39,227 nt of DNA from a virus: positions 1 to 39,227 of the IMG/VR virus record IMGVR_UViG_3300020473_000058. One strand, given 5' to 3'. Positions 2,344 through 37,025 of the stretch are shown here, one piece after another. The notes under the pieces are model-generated. The model saw nothing but the letters and a program-made list of their open reading frames with translations, searched no databases and was not told the origin of the DNA. The position numbers and the translations under genes were made by a program. The first letter of the stretch is position 1. Each line of letters starts with the position of its first letter.

Positions 2344-5300
2344 TCAAAATGTTCCCCCATCAATCGTTATATTATCCAATGAACGAGTAGTTCCAGAACA
2401 AGAAATTACTTGTGATGTACCTGCACAATCATTCAAGTATAGAGATCCAATTTCAAAACCACCAGCAGTTGAATTAGTTAGAACTCCAGCACTTTCAGTA
2501 GCAACAGCAGAAACAACAAACCTTCCAGCACTATCATCCCAGTAGAATGCTGCTTTCTTAGCAGATCCACTGTAGTAGTTCATTACAATACCAACGTCCT
2601 TGTTAGTATCTGCACTTAGAGCACCACCATCGACTACCTGAAGATCAAGTAAAGTATCTTCTATAGTAGTGTTTACTGTGTTTACAGATGAAGTTGTACC
2701 ATTGACAGTAAGGTTTCCACTAACTGTAAGGTTACTTGAAACTGTAGCAGCACCAGTAACAGCAAGAGTAGAACCATCAAATGTTAGATTGTTACTATCT
2801 TCAAGAGCACCAGCAGAACCTGCAATAACAACTCTGTTGTCTGTTAGGTCACTAACTGTAGCAGATGATAGAGTTGTCTCTCCACCAGTAAGTGTAGCAC
2901 CACTATTAGATGTTATGTTGCCAGTTACAGCAAGGGTAGAACCGTTAAATGTAAGGTTACCACTGTCCTCTAGTTCTCCAGATGTACCAGCAATAACAAC
3001 ACGATTATCTGTAAGGTCAGAAATCTTAGCAGTAGAAGCAACTAGACCAGCACCACCAGAAATATTAGCACCACCGTTACCATCTATAATACCACCAACT
3101 GTAGTAATACCAGTTACATTGACAGCAGCAAATGTAGCACCACCAGAACCACCTAAAACAGCGTCAGAAATAGTTTCAAATGTTACCTTACGGTTTGTAC
3201 CACCTGCACCGTCATCAACAATGAACAAGTCAGCGTCAGCAAGAGTAGTTGTTGCTGTACCACCGTCTATATCAAGAGTTGTGATTGGTGTAGTTCCTGC
3301 GGTTAATCCAGAACCAGATCCTGAGAAGGATGTGGCAGATAAAGCACCTGAACTTGAGTTGAATGTTAGATTAGTACCACTCTTTGCTCCAAGATTTCCA
3401 CTTGCAGCAGTTGCAAATAGTGGAAAACACGTTGTATCTGATGATTCATCAGCAACTGTAATTGTTGTACCAACTGTTGCTGTTGCTGCATTACCACTTG
3501 TATCCTGAGTACCAGATGCATTGACACCTGGTAGGTTGATATTAGCAGTACCATCAAAACTTACACCACCTATAGTTCTAGCATTTTGAAGTGCAGTTGC
3601 CGTTCCTGCATTACCACTTGCATTACCAGTAACGTTACCAGTAAGGTTACCAATAACACCACCTGTTGCTGTTGTTACACCCGTTACAGTTAAATCAGAA
3701 GTAGTTTGTAAAGATCCAACACTAACAACATTACCAAGTGACTTGAATGCCACCATTTCAAGTTCATCACCTACAGTTGCACCTGATGCAAGAGTAACAG
3801 TGTTAGCATTTGTTTGAACGTAGTCAGTACCTGTAATCAAACGAGAACCGTTTAGATAACAGTCCATGAAGCCGTTTGTGTAACCAGCACTAAAGGTAAA
3901 CGCTGTTTGACCTTGAGTAGCAGTTACGGTCTGAGATGTTGTAAAGGTTGTACCAGCAACACCAGTTAGTGCTATCTGTGCAACACCACTAGCTACTGAG
4001 AATGAATCAAGACCAGTACCAGTGAACTTGAATGCAGTAACAAGACCAGCATGTCCAGATGCTTGAATTGCACCTACTTGTGCTATAACACCACCATCAG
4101 AATTTCTTACATCACCTGCAGTAACTGTTCCACCACCAATATTAAGAGCACTTGCTGAAAGAACAGCAGAGTTATTGATCTTCAATACCTTACCCGAAGC
4201 AAGGTTAATGTTCTCAGAAGATCCCCAGTTGTCTCCAGTTGCTTCAAAGTTCCATGTTTTGTCTCCGTCTCCAGAGTCAACGGTTAAACCTGCTCCATTG
4301 GCAGCAGCGTCATCTGCAGCTCCAGTAGCAACTTGGAAGTTTTTGTCAGCAATAGTAACTGTAGTAGAATTGACTGTATTGGTTGTACCATTTACAGTTA
4401 AGTTTCCACTTATAATTGTGTTATCTGCAATAGTTGTAGTACCACCTGCAGAGTCTATTGTAAGGTTTCCTGATGATGTAGTAACAGTGTTTGCGTCAAT
4501 TGATACATTATCAATAGCAGCAGCACCTGTAACTGTGAGTGTTGTACCATTAAATGTAAGATTACCAGAATCTTCAATCTCTCCAGCAGTACCTGCAAGT
4601 ACAACTCTTCCAGATGTTAGATCAGATACTTTAGCAGAAGCAAGTGTTGCTGAATCAATAGAAGCAGCATCTATATTAGCAGTACCATCAATATATAAAT
4701 CTTTGAACTCAAGACCAGATGCACCTAAGTCAACAGCATTATCTGTTGATGGTACAATATCACCATCAAATCTACCTGTTGGTGTAATAGTATCAGAAGT
4801 AGCATTACCTAAGTCTACGTTACCATTTGCAGCAAAAACTCCAGATACATTAACATTACCAGTAAATGTGGATATACCAGATACTTTTAAAGTTGAGGCA
4901 TCTGCCTGGCTAACTGTACTGATACCAGTTACATTAATACTATTGAAGTTAGCACCTGCACCACCACCAAGGAAGTAATCCTTTAGAACTGAAGCAGTTA
5001 CTTTTCTATTTGTACCATTAGCACCATCATCAATGACCATTAGGTCAGCATCTGCAACCGTAGTTGTTGCTGTACCACCATCAATATCAACTGCAGCAAG
5101 TGGAAGAGTTCCAGCAGTAGCACCAGCAACTGAACCGTTGAAAGAACCTGTTGCTAGAGTCAATCCAGCAGCAGCAAATGTTGAATGAGTAGATCCATCA
5201 ATTGTAACTACTGCAGTTCCAGTACCACTGTCACTAACTGCAATGTTAGTGTTGGCTTGTGCAATAGTTGTTTGGTCAATTGCTGTAGTAGATGTGTTTG

Positions 5301-30686: not shown

Positions 30687-32068
30687 AATACGTCCACAGA
30701 GTACTTTTTAGAGAATAATTCTGCATCACTCCAGTCATTGACCATAGGTTTACCACGAACATTCAAAGATGTGTTCAGTAGCACTGGACAACCAGTACGT
30801 TCGTACCATGCCTCTAAGATTGGTCTGAGGATACTATTTGAGGTTTCTGGTACTGTTTGTACTCTTGCACTGTTGTCCACATGTAAACAGGCAGGTATAT
30901 CGTCTGAACGAGTGCATTGATAAGTATAAGACATATAGCGAGAATGGTCAGGCATATCAAAATAATCGTGACAATGCTCTTCCAGAATAGCAGGAGCAAA
31001 TGGTCTGAATTTCTGTCTTTGCTTGATATCGTTAACGAGGTCTTTGGTTTGAATTTCTCTTGGATCCGCAAGTAGACTTCTGTTACCAAGAGCCCTAGGA
31101 CCAAACTCTGCACGACCATTTGCAACACCAGCGATTTTATTTTTGAGTAAACAATCAACCACCTTTTTCGGATCGATCTTCCTACTGATGTTATACCCCA
31201 AATACGGGGTGAACTGTGTTTTTCCACCATAAGATAATAATGCTGCTCCTAAAGCACCTCCTGCATCGCCTGGGTTGGGCATAATCCAAAGATTGCACCT
31301 TTCCCTAAGTTTGGTGTTTACAACACAATTTAGGGCAACTCCACCTCCATAACAAATATTATCGCTATATTCCTTTGCTTTGTCAAATATTATCTCCAAT
31401 TCCTGTTGTAAAATTAGTTCTGCACTTTTTGCAACATCATATACTCCATGAGGAATATCCTCTTTACGAATACCCTTATGATTGTTTCTATGTAAGAAAC
31501 GCTCAACAATATTCATATAAACAGGTTTTCCAAACGCTGCCATACCCATGAAGATATATTCTTCGTCTAAGGGTTTTAGACCTGCCCATTTGGTCAATGC
31601 ACTGTACCAAAGACCAATAGAGTTAGGATAACGTCTAGACCATACCTTTTTGTATTCTGCCTTACCATCGACCATTTTAGCAGTCCAAATAGAAGAACAA
31701 TCCCATTCTCCTATACTATCAACAACTACACATGCTGCTTCATCAAATACTGATGTTTGAAACGCTGCTGCAGCGTGAGATTTGTGATGATCGTGATATT
31801 CAGTTGGATCTAGTGTTAAAAGTCTTTCTGTTCTTACAGTTTCGTATTGTCCAGCAAATAACTGTCTAGTTTTCTTCAACCATGGTTTTTCATAGAATGC
31901 AATCGTATCTCCACGATTTTCTAATCTAGCATGAGTGATAGCAGTTACATCTAAGTCTCTATCATGCTTCTTCTTTGAATAACGTTCTGAGTGGGTTGCA
32001 AATGCAATTTTATCGTCATTGACGACTGCAATAGCAGCATCATGAAACCCTTCGCTAAAACCAATCAT
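30683..32068 (-). CDS. Carbamoyltransferase (NodU/CmcH/TobZ family)
   Basis: A 461-aa enzyme expected to move a carbamoyl group from carbamoyl phosphate via carbamoyl-AMP onto a hydroxyl, often of a sugar. The Kae1-like N-terminal domain has FHDAAIAVV (8-16), HHKSHAAAAF (94-103), in which the His residues fit the metal site, and NICYGGGVALNCVVNTKL (237-254). The C-terminal YrdC-like or carbamoyltransferase domain has GRAEFGPRALGNRSLLADPR (318-337), RPFAPAIL (355-362) and TGCPVLLNTSLNVRGKP (425-441). It is shorter than NodU (about 560 aa) but all core motifs are present. Its start overlaps the SGNH gene stop as ATGA. Confidence 0.93.
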   Translation of the reverse strand: MIGFSEGFHDAAIAVVNDDKIAFATHSERYSKKKHDRDLDVTAITHARLENRGDTIAFYEKPWLKKTRQLFAGQYETVRTERLLTLDPTEYHDHHKSHAAAAFQTSVFDEAACVVVDSIGEWDCSSIWTAKMVDGKAEYKKVWSRRYPNSIGLWYSALTKWAGLKPLDEEYIFMGMAAFGKPVYMNIVERFLHRNNHKGIRKEDIPHGVYDVAKSAELILQQELEIIFDKAKEYSDNICYGGGVALNCVVNTKLRERCNLWIMPNPGDAGGALGAALLSYGGKTQFTPYLGYNISRKIDPKKVVDCLLKNKIAGVANGRAEFGPRALGNRSLLADPREIQTKDLVNDIKQRQKFRPFAPAILEEHCHDYFDMPDHSRYMSYTYQCTRSDDIPACLHVDNSARVQTVPETSNSILRPILEAWYERTGCPVLLNTSLNVRGKPMVNDWSDAELFSKKYSVDVF

Positions 32069-32766
32069 AATAGTTTCAGTATATCATTACAGATCAATAT
32101 ATGACCTAATCTACTCGGATGTCCACCTGGTGAAATTCTACCGTTTGCTCTTGGATATTTCATTTGATTGAGTTGTAAATCTATCGGCAATTCGCATTTA
32201 GGATCTATCGAAGTCATTACGTGAGGAATATTTAGAAGTTTTAATTTGTTCTTGATAAGATAAAAGAATAACTTTTCATCACTTTTACCAAATTCATCTT
32301 GATATATGTCTTCATAATAAGCATCCCACCAATCAACATCATCACACATTATACCACTAATAGACTTGATTCTACCAATCATACCAAACAAAACTCTTTC
32401 CCACTTTGGACTTATATCAGGATTTACTAATTGTTTTTGAATATATGGTGGTATTTCTTCTCCATTCTCAATATAAGTATCTTTTACTTTTTTTATTTTC
32501 AATTTAGCAATGTTACCACCTTTATCAAAAAACTCAGTTCTCAAAGGATATGTAAATTGAACAAATACCCGATCAAATTGAGATAAATCTTGTTCCATGA
32601 AAATCCTAGCAATAGAATGATTACTACCACCTTCTATAGACAAATTTACTTCTTCAGCATTACATCTTCGTGACAAAAGAGAACTAAATCGATATTTTGA
32701 ATATTCAGTGTATTTTCCTGATTCAGTACCGTGTGTCCAACTATCACCTAGAAATAAAAATCTCAT
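32065..32766 (-). CDS. SGNH/GDSL hydrolase-like protein, paralogue 1
   Basis: A 233-aa protein. Block I is LFLGDSWTHG (residues 4-13) with the nucleophile-type Ser. The block II-like EGGSNHSI follows, then a FVQFTYPLRTEFF strand motif and a C-terminal GGHPSRLGHILI that carries the catalytic-type His. These are the positions of Ser, Gly/Asn and His in the SGNH family of esterases and lipases, which often remove or add acyl groups on glycans. The canonical Asp three residues before His is not present. The family-specific YYEDIYQDEFGKSDEK segment is shared with three other copies. Its start overlaps the end of paralogue 2. Confidence 0.75.
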   Translation of the reverse strand: MRFLFLGDSWTHGTESGKYTEYSKYRFSSLLSRRCNAEEVNLSIEGGSNHSIARIFMEQDLSQFDRVFVQFTYPLRTEFFDKGGNIAKLKIKKVKDTYIENGEEIPPYIQKQLVNPDISPKWERVLFGMIGRIKSISGIMCDDVDWWDAYYEDIYQDEFGKSDEKLFFYLIKNKLKLLNIPHVMTSIDPKCELPIDLQLNQMKYPRANGRISPGGHPSRLGHILICNDILKLL

Positions 32767-33283
32767 AAATCCTCTTTGCTATCATTTTATGACCTTCATC
32801 TGTTGGATGACGGGTATTATCTAATGGAAAGTCAATATCCCATAGATTTAGATCAAATTTCTTCGATTTAGTGTATTTTTCTGCTGTTACCATTATACAT
32901 GGAATATTTGCAACTGAGAAATGATCTCGGATTCCAGTAAGTGCAAAGTCTTCATGTAATTGACCATATTCATCAGAATACACTTCACCATACCAAGTTT
33001 GCCAAAGTTTTTTTATCCATCCAGTAATATTCTTGTGATTGAGTTGTGGAGACACTTCTATCCATTTTCTACCATTAAAAAACTCAGTCCTGGAGGGTGA
33101 TGTCAGTTGTACAATTGCAAGATCGTAATTTTTGGGATTTTCTTCTAATGTTGTCCTCCAAATCGATCTATTACTATATCCTGGTCGAGATATGTTTGTA
33201 TATTCTTTTGTGTCGAATAATTTTGCCAAATGGTCGGGATATGACCCGAATGCAAAAGAAGAACCATTAAAAAATATTTTCAT
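32744..33283 (-). CDS. SGNH/GDSL hydrolase-like protein, paralogue 2
   Basis: A 179-aa protein, the shortest of five. IFFNGSSFAFG (3-13) is block I, with GSS replacing GDS. GYSNRSIWRTT is block II, DLAIVQLTSPSRTEFF the central motif, and DNTRHPTDEGHKMIA the C-terminal His block. Alignment with paralogue 5 places Asn where that copy has the Asp of the DxxH pair, so the catalytic charge relay may be altered. WYGEVYSDEYG matches the shared middle segment. The gene overlaps both neighbours by about 20 nt, so the copies are translated as a coupled set. Confidence 0.72.
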   Translation of the reverse strand: MKIFFNGSSFAFGSYPDHLAKLFDTKEYTNISRPGYSNRSIWRTTLEENPKNYDLAIVQLTSPSRTEFFNGRKWIEVSPQLNHKNITGWIKKLWQTWYGEVYSDEYGQLHEDFALTGIRDHFSVANIPCIMVTAEKYTKSKKFDLNLWDIDFPLDNTRHPTDEGHKMIAKRIYEIFISR

Positions 33284-33908
33284 TGATATGATCTGCTATA
33301 ATTCGATGACCTTGTTCATTTGGATGACCTCCACTCTGTTTATCATCGTTTTTATACCTTTCTTGACAATAATATTGTGGAAACTTGTGTTTATCACCAA
33401 CTAAACGTCTCAAAGATACAATCGGAGTCTTATCCATCATATTATACCATGAAGAATTAGTTTTAGTTCCTTCTAAATCACGATATCTTTCTAAATTGAC
33501 AAAATAGTATTTGATACCTTTTAATTTGAAATAATTTTCCAATAAGAATTTATTCTTATGATAATTGGCAATATGTAAATTAGTGTTATGTAAATGTTCA
33601 TAATATATCTTCGACCTTTCTTTTACTGGTGGTGGTCCTTTGGTCATTGCACCTACACTGAGATAATAGTAATCATCAGTTCTTTCACAACGAAATTCTG
33701 TCCTAGAATATGCAGTAAATTGAATAACAGCAATATCTACAGTATTACTTTCACAAAACTGCATTGTAGTTCGTAAAATACCATCATTAGACTTACCACA
33801 CTGTCCAAGATTGACATGTGGTTTCCCTATAAGTGCTGAAAATCGATTTTCTTCGGGATTTGCAAGTTCATCACCATAAGTCCATGAACAACCGTCAAAT
33901 AGAATCAT
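33267..33908 (-). CDS. SGNH/GDSL hydrolase-like protein, paralogue 3
   Basis: A 213-aa protein and the most divergent copy. Block I is ILFDGCSWTYGDE (2-14), block II GKSNDGILRTTM, and the central motif DIAVIQFTAYSRTEF. The C-terminal block is KQSGGHPNEQGHRIIADHI. It lacks the Y...YxxEYG segment of the others and instead carries a longer His/Asn/Lys-rich middle (YYEHLHNTNLHIANYHKNKF). The Ser and His positions are kept. The likely activity, if any, is acyl-ester hydrolysis or transfer; no signal peptide is visible, so it would act in the cytoplasm or on the virion. Confidence 0.7.
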   Translation of the reverse strand: MILFDGCSWTYGDELANPEENRFSALIGKPHVNLGQCGKSNDGILRTTMQFCESNTVDIAVIQFTAYSRTEFRCERTDDYYYLSVGAMTKGPPPVKERSKIYYEHLHNTNLHIANYHKNKFLLENYFKLKGIKYYFVNLERYRDLEGTKTNSSWYNMMDKTPIVSLRRLVGDKHKFPQYYCQERYKNDDKQSGGHPNEQGHRIIADHINENIF

Positions 33909-34560
33909 AATTTCGTTCTTTTATCAGTTTTACTACATCAGAAGCAATCATTACTTGACCTTTTTCATCAGGATGCCAATGTATCCTACTATGAGGGTAT
34001 GTATCATTAGTAATCATAATATCATACTTCAATTTTGTCTCTGGATAACATGACAATAGTATAACTGGCTTATTTTTTGCTTTACAAGTATTTTTTATTG
34101 ACTCATAAACCATTTTTTCATTAGTTTCACCATATTCCTTTTCATAAACTTCAAAATAGTAATTTTGCCAAAACTCTTCAAGTGATCTAGTCATCCATTT
34201 CTTAATTTTGTTATTGTTAATATTATTAGTGACAGGAAGAAATCTTTTTTCGCTTTTACCGTAAAATTCTGTTCTATTTGGAAATGTAAGTTGTATAATT
34301 ATAAGATCACAATCTTCAATAGTATATTTGTTATCATTTAGACGTTTATAGTTTTGAGGTGACTGTCTAACAAGTATATCATCGGGTTTTGTAGTTAGTT
34401 GCCTCAACATACGAATATTACATCCACCACTTCTCGAATAATTAACTTCTTCTGCACCTATTGTATCACAAACTAACTTACTCCACCTTAGATTTTCATA
34501 ATTATCACCCAAATACCCCTTTCCATGAGTATTTGAACATCCATCAAAATAAATTCTCAT
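33895..34560 (-). CDS. SGNH/GDSL hydrolase-like protein, paralogue 4
   Basis: A 221-aa protein from the ATG at 34558-34560; the frame can be extended one codon to a TTG but the ATG is better. Block I is IYFDGCSNTHG (3-13), block II SGGCNIRML, central motif DLIIIQLTFPNRTEFYG, and shared segment YYFEVYEKEYGETNEK. The C-terminal block reads HWHPDEKGQVMIA, with Gln replacing the second His of HP..GH. A roughly 25-residue insertion (LVRQSPQNYKRLNDNKY) precedes the central motif. The ATG overlaps the stop of the 51-aa gene by one base. Confidence 0.7.
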   Translation of the reverse strand: MRIYFDGCSNTHGKGYLGDNYENLRWSKLVCDTIGAEEVNYSRSGGCNIRMLRQLTTKPDDILVRQSPQNYKRLNDNKYTIEDCDLIIIQLTFPNRTEFYGKSEKRFLPVTNNINNNKIKKWMTRSLEEFWQNYYFEVYEKEYGETNEKMVYESIKNTCKAKNKPVILLSCYPETKLKYDIMITNDTYPHSRIHWHPDEKGQVMIASDVVKLIKERNYDSI

Positions 34561-34715
34561 CAAGAATGTGCTTTTACCTTAATATCATCTACATTATAGC
34601 ACGTTTTTATCCCTGCGAATATCATTCGACGCATTTGAGTCTGTTTTTCCTTCGCTTCTTCTTCAGTAAGGTGAGAAAAAATGATTTTCTTGTCTAGGTA
34701 AACGTCATAGTCCAT
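34560..34715 (-). CDS. Small protein, unknown function (51 aa)
   Basis: A 51-aa ORF, MDYDVYLDKKIIFSHLTEEE at the start and YNVDDIKVKAHS at the end, with a basic/acidic helical middle (AKEKQTQMRRMIF). Its ATG lies inside the last codons of the HNH gene (11-nt overlap) and its TGA overlaps the next ATG, so it is firmly embedded in the operon. The N-terminal layout resembles the 57-aa protein at 29692. The function is unknown. Confidence 0.7.
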   Translation of the reverse strand: MDYDVYLDKKIIFSHLTEEEAKEKQTQMRRMIFAGIKTCYNVDDIKVKAHS

Positions 34716-35103
34716 TGGTAACCATAATTCGGGTCTTCATACCGTTAGAACCCCGTATTAGTCGCTTTCTTGGACCTTCAGACTTGACTCTTTGCCACTC
34801 TTTGATCCTATCATAGCGATCTTGAGAGAAAAAGTACTTATTAATGTACCATTCTTCCCAATTTTGGTGTCCTTTGTCTTTGTTACACTCTACACAGGCA
34901 CATAAGACGTTTGTAACTTCACTATTTCCACCCATTGCTTTCGCATGAATGTGATCTAGTGACATTTGGTCTTTATGTTCTCCACAATATGCACAAACAT
35001 GGTTCCATTTTTCCTTTATTGCCTCTTTCCACTTACGTCTTGCCTCTGATCTCGTTTGTGCCTTCATCTGATACAGGTATTCCTGTGGAGAAGCGAGTAA
35101 CAT
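34705..35103 (-). CDS. HNH homing-type endonuclease
   Basis: A 132-aa HNH nuclease. A CAYCG zinc knuckle (37-41) and CACVECNKDKG (68-78) supply the four Cys ligands. LDHIHAKAMGGNSEVTNV (49-66) carries the DH pair and the central Asn of the beta-beta-alpha-metal active site. A basic N-terminal helix (QTRSEARRKWKEAIKEKW) and basic C-terminus may contact DNA. Free-standing HNH genes of this size are frequent in cyanophages and behave as mobile elements. This one splits the SGNH paralogue array between copies 4 and 5. It makes a DNA nick or break; the target is unknown. Confidence 0.9.
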   Translation of the reverse strand: MLLASPQEYLYQMKAQTRSEARRKWKEAIKEKWNHVCAYCGEHKDQMSLDHIHAKAMGGNSEVTNVLCACVECNKDKGHQNWEEWYINKYFFSQDRYDRIKEWQRVKSEGPRKRLIRGSNGMKTRIMVTNGL

Positions 35104-35136
35104 ACACTAATTTAGGTGTGATATATTATATATGTC

Positions 35137-35181
35137 TTATTCCTCATAAATGTATGGATCTTCCCGACGTAATTTCCACAT
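35137..35181 (-). CDS. Possible tiny ORF (14 aa)
   Basis: MWKLRREDPYIYEE with ATG and TAA, two nucleotides after the stop of SGNH paralogue 5 and before the HNH start. The short W-(K/R)-x-R-(K/R)-(E/D)-DP-(Y/F)-IYE pattern seems familiar from tiny ORFs of marine T4-like phages, but that is from memory. No Shine-Dalgarno sequence is evident. It could be a chance ORF. Confidence 0.35.
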   Translation of the reverse strand: MWKLRREDPYIYEE

Positions 35182-35182
35182 C

Positions 35183-35734
35183 TTATACTTGAATTTTACC
35201 CATTTTACTAATTTTTTCATAAATTTTCTCTGAAATGATGTAATGACCTTCTTCAGTCGGGTGTTTTGTGTCACCTAAAGGGATGTCAGGAGTATTTAGG
35301 AGGAAATCGTAAGGGTAAGTTGAGTTTTTTGCACTTGTACAGAGCAATAATTCAACATTTTTTGCTTGAAAATGAGAAATTAGTGCTTGACGATAGATAA
35401 ATTCGTCACTTTCTCCATATTCTTCACTATAATACTTTTCGTAATACTCTAAAAACTTCTTTCCTCTACCTCTTCCTGGATTTATTTTCTCCCATTGCCC
35501 ATCTAAGAAGAATTCTGTTCTGTTTTTGAATGTCAGAGAGACGATTGCAAGGTCGTATTGACTTACATCATGATTAAAGGTTCTTCTTATAATACTTCTA
35601 TTACTACAACCATGATCAGATATATCAGTAAACGTCGCATTGAGTTTATTTGATAATAAAACTGGATATCTTTTACTTCTGTCTTCTAAATTGAATCCCC
35701 AAGTAAAACTATCACCATTAAATAATATGTTCAT
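35183..35734 (-). CDS. SGNH/GDSL hydrolase-like protein, paralogue 5
   Basis: A 183-aa protein and the most canonical copy. Block I is ILFNGDSFTWG (3-13), block II HGCSNRSIIRRT, central motif DLAIVSLTFKNRTEFF, and shared segment YYEKYYSEEYGESDE. C-terminal GDTKHPTEEGHYII keeps a true DxxH pair. All features of an SGNH esterase catalytic triad are therefore present here. It is the first gene of the leftward operon, with CTAAATA at 35797-35803 63 nt upstream of its ATG. It is separated from its paralogues by the HNH gene. Confidence 0.8.
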   Translation of the reverse strand: MNILFNGDSFTWGFNLEDRSKRYPVLLSNKLNATFTDISDHGCSNRSIIRRTFNHDVSQYDLAIVSLTFKNRTEFFLDGQWEKINPGRGRGKKFLEYYEKYYSEEYGESDEFIYRQALISHFQAKNVELLLCTSAKNSTYPYDFLLNTPDIPLGDTKHPTEEGHYIISEKIYEKISKMGKIQV

Positions 35735-35897: not shown

Positions 35898-36689
35898 ATG
35901 AAATCGTTACTGATCAACGCAGGGTTTGGATGGTGTGCCACTACACCACTTTTTCGTACATTATGCAGAACCAATGATTATTGTATCAAAAAGAAGACAA
36001 GTGAAGGTGGTTTTCCCAAGGAACCACACTTACTTCTAAAAATACTGGAGAGACACACGGATGACCGTGCCATAAGAGATGCTTGGAATATCATAGATGC
36101 TGAGAGATTTGCGACCATAGAGGGTTACGTCGAGTATATCAATAATTTACCTGGAGAGAGGGTTACCGACTTCTCTAATACTAATGCAGATTTGCCCGAA
36201 GAGTTTATAGATGCAATTGCACCGACACTTCTAAATCACTTTGATGTAAAAGTGACAATGATTGTTAGAGATCCCGTGAGAAGATACTACTCATTGTGTA
36301 ATCATCTCTATAAGAAAGACATACGTAATCGAATACATGGAGATATAATACAATACTTTCGACATATGCTACAACATTGTAGTCATTCCTATGTTAGAAC
36401 ATATCGAATGTATAGTAAATGGTTTCCAACTTATTCGATAGTTATGGAAGACCTGTGGAAAAACCCAGAGAAAGAACTACCAAAGTTATCTGAGTTCCTT
36501 GAATATCCATTGAAAAAGTTACATCCGAATGTCTACCATGATGGTGTCAAGCACGATAAACTAAAAGACCAATGGACTGATGATATACCACTAAGTCCTA
36601 TTGGTTATCAGATGGCTAGAAAGGAACTACAATGGGTGTATGATGAGTGGATGTCTGAGTTTGGTAACATTCCTTCATCATGGTGTTGA
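35898..36689 (+). CDS. Sulfotransferase
   Basis: A 263-aa protein from the ATG at 35898-35900; a TTG 24 nt upstream is less likely. The 5'-phosphosulfate-binding-type loop is GFGWCATTPLFRTL (9-22). The 3'-phosphate-binding motif is MIVRDPVRRYYS (121-132), a close fit to the RDP..R.YS signature. A downstream IVMEDLWKNPEKELPKLSEFL matches the sulfotransferase 'ExL..dP..L..FLG' region. It would use PAPS to sulfate a sugar or other hydroxyl acceptor. It differs from the two P-loop paralogues at the left edge and is closer to bacterial Stf/NodH-type enzymes. It is transcribed opposite to the SGNH genes. Confidence 0.85.
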   Translation: MKSLLINAGFGWCATTPLFRTLCRTNDYCIKKKTSEGGFPKEPHLLLKILERHTDDRAIRDAWNIIDAERFATIEGYVEYINNLPGERVTDFSNTNADLPEEFIDAIAPTLLNHFDVKVTMIVRDPVRRYYSLCNHLYKKDIRNRIHGDIIQYFRHMLQHCSHSYVRTYRMYSKWFPTYSIVMEDLWKNPEKELPKLSEFLEYPLKKLHPNVYHDGVKHDKLKDQWTDDIPLSPIGYQMARKELQWVYDEWMSEFGNIPSSWC

Positions 36690-36714
36690 CAGGATATAGA
36701 GAACAGGTTATAAT
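36686..36714 (+). promoter_or_regulatory. Consensus sigma70 promoter for ncRNA and tRNA-Asp
   Basis: TTGACA (36686-36691), exactly 17 nt, then TATAAT (36709-36714): a perfect match to the housekeeping sigma70 promoter with optimal spacing. The -35 box overlaps the TGA stop of the sulfotransferase. The expected start is near 36721, exactly where a 6-bp hairpin begins. It should be used by host RNA polymerase without a phage activator, so early or constitutive expression is inferred. Confidence 0.9.
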
Positions 36715-36720
36715 ATGTAC

Positions 36721-36925
36721 ATCGAAGCGACGGTTTCGATACGGGGATGACTGAATAATCTTTCTGGCATTTGGCTGGATAAGGTGATGAGACACAGGTG
36801 GTGCTGCTGTGGTTTTCCACAGAACCGATCAACCAATCGGGTCTCAGGCAGAGGCGAATCTTACTAACTGTAGTAATGCCCTCCTCTTGTTGGTAATAAC
36901 AGCAATCCAACTCCCCACCCTTTTT
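36721..36925 (+). ncRNA. Unclassified structured RNA, about 205 nt
   Basis: This stretch has no credible reading frame downstream of a perfect promoter. The elements visible by eye are as follows. ATCGAA/TTCGAT hairpin at 36721-36740. GGGGA (36743-36747) pairing with TCCCC (36912-36916) to close the molecule. TGAGAC/GTCTCA (36788-36793, 36841-36846) enclosing CTGTGG-TTTT-CCACAG (36807-36822) and CCGAT-CAACCA-ATCGG (36825-36840). AGAGG/CCTCT around a TTACTA-ACTG-TAGTAA hairpin. GTTGG/CCAAC near the 3' end. A T5 tract at 36921-36925 follows. It does not match 6S, RNase P RNA or tmRNA as I know them. Confidence 0.65.
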
Positions 36926-36927
36926 CA

Positions 36928-37001
36928 GGGATAGTAGTTCAGTGGTTTAGAACGCTGCCCTGTCACGGCAGAGGTCGTCGGTTCAAATCCGATCTGTCCC
37001 G
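36928..37001 (+). tRNA. tRNA-Asp (GTC)
   Basis: A 74-nt cloverleaf. The acceptor stem GGGATAG pairs with CTGTCCC (one G-T pair), with discriminator G. The D stem is GTTC/GAAC, the anticodon arm CTGCC-CTGTCAC-GGCAG with anticodon GTC, and the T arm GTCGG-TTCAAAT-CCGAT. No 3' CCA is encoded. It lies downstream of the structured RNA in the same orientation, two bases after a T-tract, so it is probably co-transcribed and processed. Confidence 0.95.
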
Positions 37002-37025
37002 TTTTCCACAGAGGTTGTGGAAAAC
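37001..37025 (+). repeat. Perfect 10-bp inverted repeat after the tRNA
   Basis: GTTTTCCACA, loop GAGGT, TGTGGAAAAC. It starts on the tRNA discriminator base. Each arm carries TTTTCCACA, the 9-mer known as the cyanobacterial DnaA box. There is no U-tract after it, so it is more likely a processing signal, a protein-binding site, or both, than a strong terminator. Confidence 0.7.

Follow-up and report, generated by a model that had tools for sequence, protein, structure and literature searches.

The manA motif was described by Weinberg et al. (2010) from marine metagenomes, T4-like cyanophages and two gamma-proteobacteria, and was rated as certainly an RNA, certainly cis-regulatory ('Y') and probably a riboswitch ('y') (PMC2864571). 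It has been an orphan riboswitch candidate since 2010. Rfam assigns RF01745 the type Cis-reg, and Zheng et al. (2023), who found manA in the cyanophage S-CREM1, labelled it cis-regulatory as well (PMC9964418). The CMCompare paper quotes Rfam on the frequent location of manA next to tRNAs and describes a weak cloverleaf-like link between the manA model and the tRNA model (PMC3692125). The R2R paper notes, without details, that certain manA RNAs contain modular structures (PMC3023696), and manA is among the families for which CaCoFold gave an improved structure (PMC7657543). Two riboswitch reviews from 2022 contain no mention of manA.

The window analysed here is the whole of the 39 kb virus record IMGVR_UViG_3300020473_000058, with positions numbered 1–39,227. 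It is a fragment of a T4-like cyanophage, and the T4-like baseplate genes gp6 and gp25 are present. A covariance-model search with Rfam matched positions 36723–36921 to manA (RF01745) at 174.3 bits and an E-value of 5.5e-47; the gathering threshold is 55.2 bits, and the match spans the entire model. Our own covariance model R1, which was built from 36 diverse manA copies and from which copy coordinates were taken, scored the same RNA at 192.9 bits. It is certain that the window RNA belongs to manA. An earlier sequence-only reading had pointed to a structured RNA at this site and considered its class not recognised; with a clear match to a known family (174 bits against a 55-bit threshold), an outcome set beforehand as refuting unclassified status, that part of the claim was abandoned. 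The RNA folds at −67.4 kcal/mol and is more stable than shuffled sequences (z −2.4). The features of the locus are as follows.

36686–36714, plus strand: sigma70 consensus promoter (−35 TTGACA at 36686–36691, spacer of 17, −10 TATAAT at 36709–36714)
36721–36740, plus strand: P1 hairpin, ATCGAAGC-GACG-GTTTCGAT
36723–36921, plus strand: complete manA RNA, Rfam RF01745, model positions 1–192 of 192
36743–36747, plus strand: 5' strand of the closing helix, GGGGA, partner TCCCC at 36912–36916
36868–36871, plus strand: CTGT in a hairpin loop, proposed loop-loop (kissing) contact with ACAG at 36899–36902
36899–36902, plus strand: ACAG, 3' partner in the proposed loop-loop contact, pairing with CTGT at 36868–36871
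36912–36916, plus strand: 3' strand of the closing helix, TCCCC, partner GGGGA at 36743–36747
36921–36925, plus strand: T5 tract in the gap between manA and the tRNA
36928–37001, plus strand: tRNA-Asp(GTC), closely 3' of manA

The upstream neighbour of manA in the window is a sulfotransferase-like ORF, the stop codon of which (36687–36689) is overlapped by the −35 element. An ORF for a 2OG-Fe(II) oxygenase is located downstream of tRNA-Asp. No long sense ORF was found inside the window manA, where frames reach 32–41 aa only, in line with the ORF-free span noticed earlier. At the 3' end of tRNA-Asp a perfect 9-bp inverted repeat, GTTTTCCAC-AGAGGTT-GTGGAAAAC, occupies 37001–37025 and carries no T-run. 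Elsewhere in the window, five adjacent minus-strand ORFs (32065–35734) share, by eye, a start resembling MxxxFxGxSxTxG and an end with HPxxxGH, which suggests a tandem family of SGNH-hydrolase-like proteins.

Relatives were collected by scanning IMG/VR with a conserved-core pattern, a looser pattern and a further two designed to catch neighbouring tRNAs, and isolate and single-cell phage records were added. The resulting set holds at least 165 complete manA copies, 116 of them nonredundant at 85% with flanks included, and a subset of 111 copies was not selected for tRNAs. The set samples the family without enumerating it. Because core patterns found the copies and two scans targeted tRNAs, the frequencies given here are not population estimates. 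Outside these records, the 22-base manA core pattern matched 2 of 84,980 species genomes. One match adjoins gp46-like phage genes and the other, in a MAG, a phage-structural-like ORF (both by eye). No host copy of manA with the exact 22-base pattern was thus found in these genomes, and the idea of manA as a host gene was rejected on this basis. Short hypothetical proteins (PHM2_011/012, SSSM5_127, PSSM4_169.1) have been annotated within manA in isolate records (L123:3071–3245, L130:3008–3214, L132:3041–3214), and the records of P-HM2, P-SSM4 and S-SSM5 have hypothetical proteins drawn across it. The hypothetical proteins inside manA are probably not genes. In the main text of the P-HM2 transcriptome paper (PMC5082946), no mention of the genes annotated inside manA was found.

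The fold was assessed with two alignments. In alignment A1, both bases vary in 39 of 55 pairs compared with 22.2 after shuffling, and the covariation score was 0.307 versus 0.131 for shuffled sequences; the signal was lost once pairing partners were slid. In alignment A2, 97.3% of cells are paired, a value biased toward the model because the alignment was fitted to it, and the 8-bp P1 hairpin covaries at all pairs. The GGGGA/TCCCC helix picked out by the sequence-only reading is the one that closes the structure in the manA model. Most relatives have GGGAG/CTCCC at this place, so two closing-helix pairs are compensated in the window. The stems recur in relatives with covariation, and so do the promoter and the position of the hairpin, which places these features beyond chance. 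Pairing between the CUGU and ACAG loops is possible in 36/36 diverse sequences, with covariation at three of the four pairs, and many unpaired bases within this complex fold are invariant. Two loops of the four-way junction, UGGU (36799–36802) and ACCA (36832–36835), are invariant and complementary. By analogy, a contact between them could mirror the D-loop/T-loop contact of tRNA; since both loops are invariant, covariation provides no evidence for it. Many manA copies terminate with CCTCCCTCCTTT, which resembles the 16S 3' end. Anti-Shine-Dalgarno mimicry was rejected as a general function, because the window (which has CTCCCCACCCTTTTT) and other clades lack the matching end and the CUCCC strand is paired.

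The 5' end of manA was examined in the window and across the set. TTGACA-N17-TATAAT at 36686–36714 is the sole perfect match in the window, where 0.11 were expected from shuffles, and it is also the only 12/12 site within the scanned 9.2 kb. The first paired base of P1 is 36721, 6 nt past the −10 element, and transcription is predicted from the sequence to start at about this position. Both the perfect promoter and the coincidence of the predicted start with the first hairpin base, as proposed earlier, were borne out. In aligned upstream regions a sigma70 promoter lies right before P1 in nearly all copies: at least 10 of the 12 consensus bases were present in 154/165 sampled copies, with TATAAA allowed as a −10 variant (9 copies), and TTGACA was exact in 144. 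Under a stricter rule, which was the same for copies and controls, 133/152 copies were positive compared with 1.2% of control windows. In the nonredundant set, 108/116 have a promoter. Pairing in P1 typically begins 5 nt after the −10 element (86/133) and 3–6 nt after it in most other copies. The host-type promoter, which had been called notable for a T4-like phage, is a conserved part of the manA gene.

In each of the 11 promoterless copies, a tRNA ends 0–1 nt before the model start or the first hairpin. These tRNAs are of the types Thr, Arg and Leu as identified by ARAGORN; the ones upstream of L054 and L254 were missed by ARAGORN alone and detected by cmscan. The frequency of promoterless copies is inflated, because most of the 11 come from the scan requiring an upstream tRNA. 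No copy in the whole set of 165 was without both a promoter and an abutting upstream tRNA, and the 5' end of manA is therefore always defined by one or the other. As the tRNA ends 0–1 nt before P1, initiation at a promoter and 3' processing of a tRNA would yield nearly the same 5' end. A promoter of its own with the start at the RNA 5' end, as an autonomous gene should have, is thus found at the level of sequence. In 45 of the 108 nonredundant promoters the −35 element sits within an intrinsic-terminator hairpin (background 1%), and the T-run of the terminator is part of the promoter spacer. One piece of DNA would here stop the upstream transcript and start manA. In L128, L130, L127 and L129, TTGACA lies in the loop of the intrinsic terminator (GAGGGTGCTTGACACCCTCTTTTTTT), and about 40% of the nonredundant manA promoters are alike.

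The 3' side is more varied. In the window, the T5 tract seen by the sequence-only reading does precede the tRNA gene. A tRNA follows within 0–14 nt in 37/165 sampled copies (Asn 28, Gly 4, Asp 3, Ala 2). In the set not chosen for tRNAs a downstream tRNA was present in 7/111 copies, and 101/111 were without an adjacent one. The suggestion that the RNA is a tRNA leader can stand for this minority (7/111), and for the same reason it cannot describe the general function. At the manA 3' end, 48/165 copies carry a run of at least five T (background 3%), and terminators within 110 nt were found for 16/116 nonredundant copies. Where present, these terminators begin no earlier than the model 3' end and leave the conserved pairs free. 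A hairpin of nearly constant sequence, GACCTAAGATGCAAC...GGGCAGATGGTC, was located at no fewer than 116 places in IMG/VR, 115 of them at most 60 nt 3' of manA (for example L013:3491–3530, L046, L011 and L084). At the sole place with no manA before it, the contig end cuts the region off. Five or more T directly follow the hairpin in 65/117 cases; in the remainder the next sequence reads, by eye, as tRNA-Gly or the gp32 leader. This GACC...GGTC hairpin matches no Rfam family, and the window manA is without it. Judged by its distribution, it is a manA-specific conserved 3' module, kept whatever gene comes next. A discrete 3' end is thus marked by an adjacent tRNA, a T-run, a terminator or this module in a part of the copies and not in every one.

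The genomic contexts of manA differ between phages. Exactly one copy is present in each of the complete phage genomes having manA (17/17). A 4.8 kb contig (L068) contains two copies (114–315 and 3634–3836), unlike the complete isolates. Copies are situated after gp23, after pstS, after regA, before gp32, near talC and elsewhere, and the first genes downstream fall into 52 families, among which gp32 (23), talC (14) and also hsp20 recur. tRNAs flank manA on both sides in L255/L260 (Thr, Ala) and L254 (two tRNAs), and in the isolate S-CREM1 the order is tRNA-Leu, manA, tRNA-Asn with gaps of 0–1 nt. In a quick tree of manA, at least 11 changes in adjacency to tRNAs fall on branches with good support.

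We favour the reading that manA is an autonomous, trans-acting phage RNA gene over the published riboswitch reading, with a probability of roughly 0.7, because a cis-regulator has to act on its downstream neighbour, and the downstream content varies without limit and includes tRNAs, while the upstream boundary is fixed as either a start site or the end of a tRNA. Such a pattern fits an RNA for which its own ends are important. In all probability manA stands free and is not an on/off switch of the neighbouring gene, and its autonomy is well supported by the genomics. In the window, host RNA polymerase with a sigma70-type factor would start at about 36721 from the perfect promoter; by comparison with the early genes of T4-like phages, this would happen early in infection. 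The transcript would continue through manA into tRNA-Asp. Judging from the position of the tRNA, a cut by RNase P at 36927/36928 would set the manA 3' end and yield an RNA of about 200 nt (about 36721–36925/36927) and a tRNA-Asp precursor. The fold of the RNA would comprise P1, a cloverleaf-like four-way junction enclosed by the closing helix, and a pair of 3' hairpins with a loop-loop contact, and once released the RNA may act in trans as a stable structured RNA. In general, the ends of manA would be set by the promoter, by tRNA processing or by terminators. The fuller statement, in which manA is no riboswitch but a single-copy, free-standing RNA of about 200–250 nt that is made by the host polymerase or cut from tRNA precursors, has a trans-acting role in infection, perhaps in translation, and could have a UGGU/ACCA contact in its cloverleaf-like four-way junction, seems to us somewhat better than an even bet.

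The published alternative places manA in the 5' UTR of a downstream gene as a cis-regulatory element and possibly a riboswitch, here in the transcript of tRNA-Asp and the 2OG-Fe(II) oxygenase. Its complex covarying structure with numerous invariant unpaired bases is consistent with this assignment, which is that of the original annotation (PMC2864571) and of Rfam, and so is the recurrence of gp32, talC and hsp20 downstream. Many copies indeed precede genes, and read-through with an effect in cis is possible, which is a counter-point to autonomy, as is the low number of nonredundant copies with a terminator within 110 nt (16/116). However, a riboswitch should precede protein genes with a coherent function, whereas the first feature after manA is a tRNA in the window and any of 52 gene families or a tRNA elsewhere, with copies directly before tRNAs or between two of them. 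A single copy per genome also argues against it, as may the terminators that, where present, start at or after the model 3' end and spare the conserved pairs, and we regard cis-regulation as unlikely. The position at the extreme 5' end of the transcript, with P1 at the predicted start, and the diversity of the genes and tRNAs that come after it would suit a 5' module for stabilisation or processing, which would protect or insulate the downstream tRNA or mRNA like a cap and have no target in trans. A simple cap would have no need of a conserved loop-loop contact or of so many unpaired bases that never vary, and in L255, L254 and S-CREM1 manA is internal in a tRNA array; this explanation is improbable. 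The role put forward by the sequence-only reading, a 6S-like RNA binding RNA polymerase or an RNA sponge, draws on a similar length and the host-type promoter. The fold is a multibranched junction, unlike the long rod with a single open bulge of 6S RNA, and the Rfam 6S models gave no match to the window RNA even at E up to 5. 6S RNA was rejected, and we give this role as a whole very little credence.

If manA is autonomous, ligand searches led by its downstream genes have been misdirected, the Rfam type 'Cis-reg' misleads phage annotation, and manA is one more entry on the short list of conserved, structured, free-standing phage RNAs. Autonomy can be tested in cultured phage-host pairs. The 5'-end rule, the overlap of promoter and terminator, and the conserved 3' hairpin module are new, with the reservation that the module may have been seen before, since the R2R paper mentions modular structures (PMC3023696). 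The adjacency to tRNAs is not new, as it is already given in the CMCompare paper (PMC3692125), and the loop-loop contact may not be wholly new because CaCoFold improves the manA structure (PMC7657543).

Among known systems, GOLLD and ROOL resemble manA as structured non-coding phage RNAs that are often near tRNA islands (PMC12286853). Both exceed manA several-fold in length and assemble into RNA cages, and the window RNA has no sequence or family match to either. The cultured cyanophage S-CREM1 (PMC9964418; OP535465) is close to the window in having a tRNA 3' of manA, tRNA-Asn, with tRNA-Leu on the 5' side; its manA differs from the window copy in being more divergent (96.6 bits) and in having no promoter of its own. 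Of the manA motif as first described (RF01745, PMC2864571) the window RNA is a full-length member, with the same helices, conserved loops and distribution in cyanophages. The published motif is a candidate cis-regulator or riboswitch of a 5' UTR, whereas across the 165 copies a promoter or an abutting tRNA sets the 5' end, and the manA of the window has a promoter of its own and a tRNA after it.
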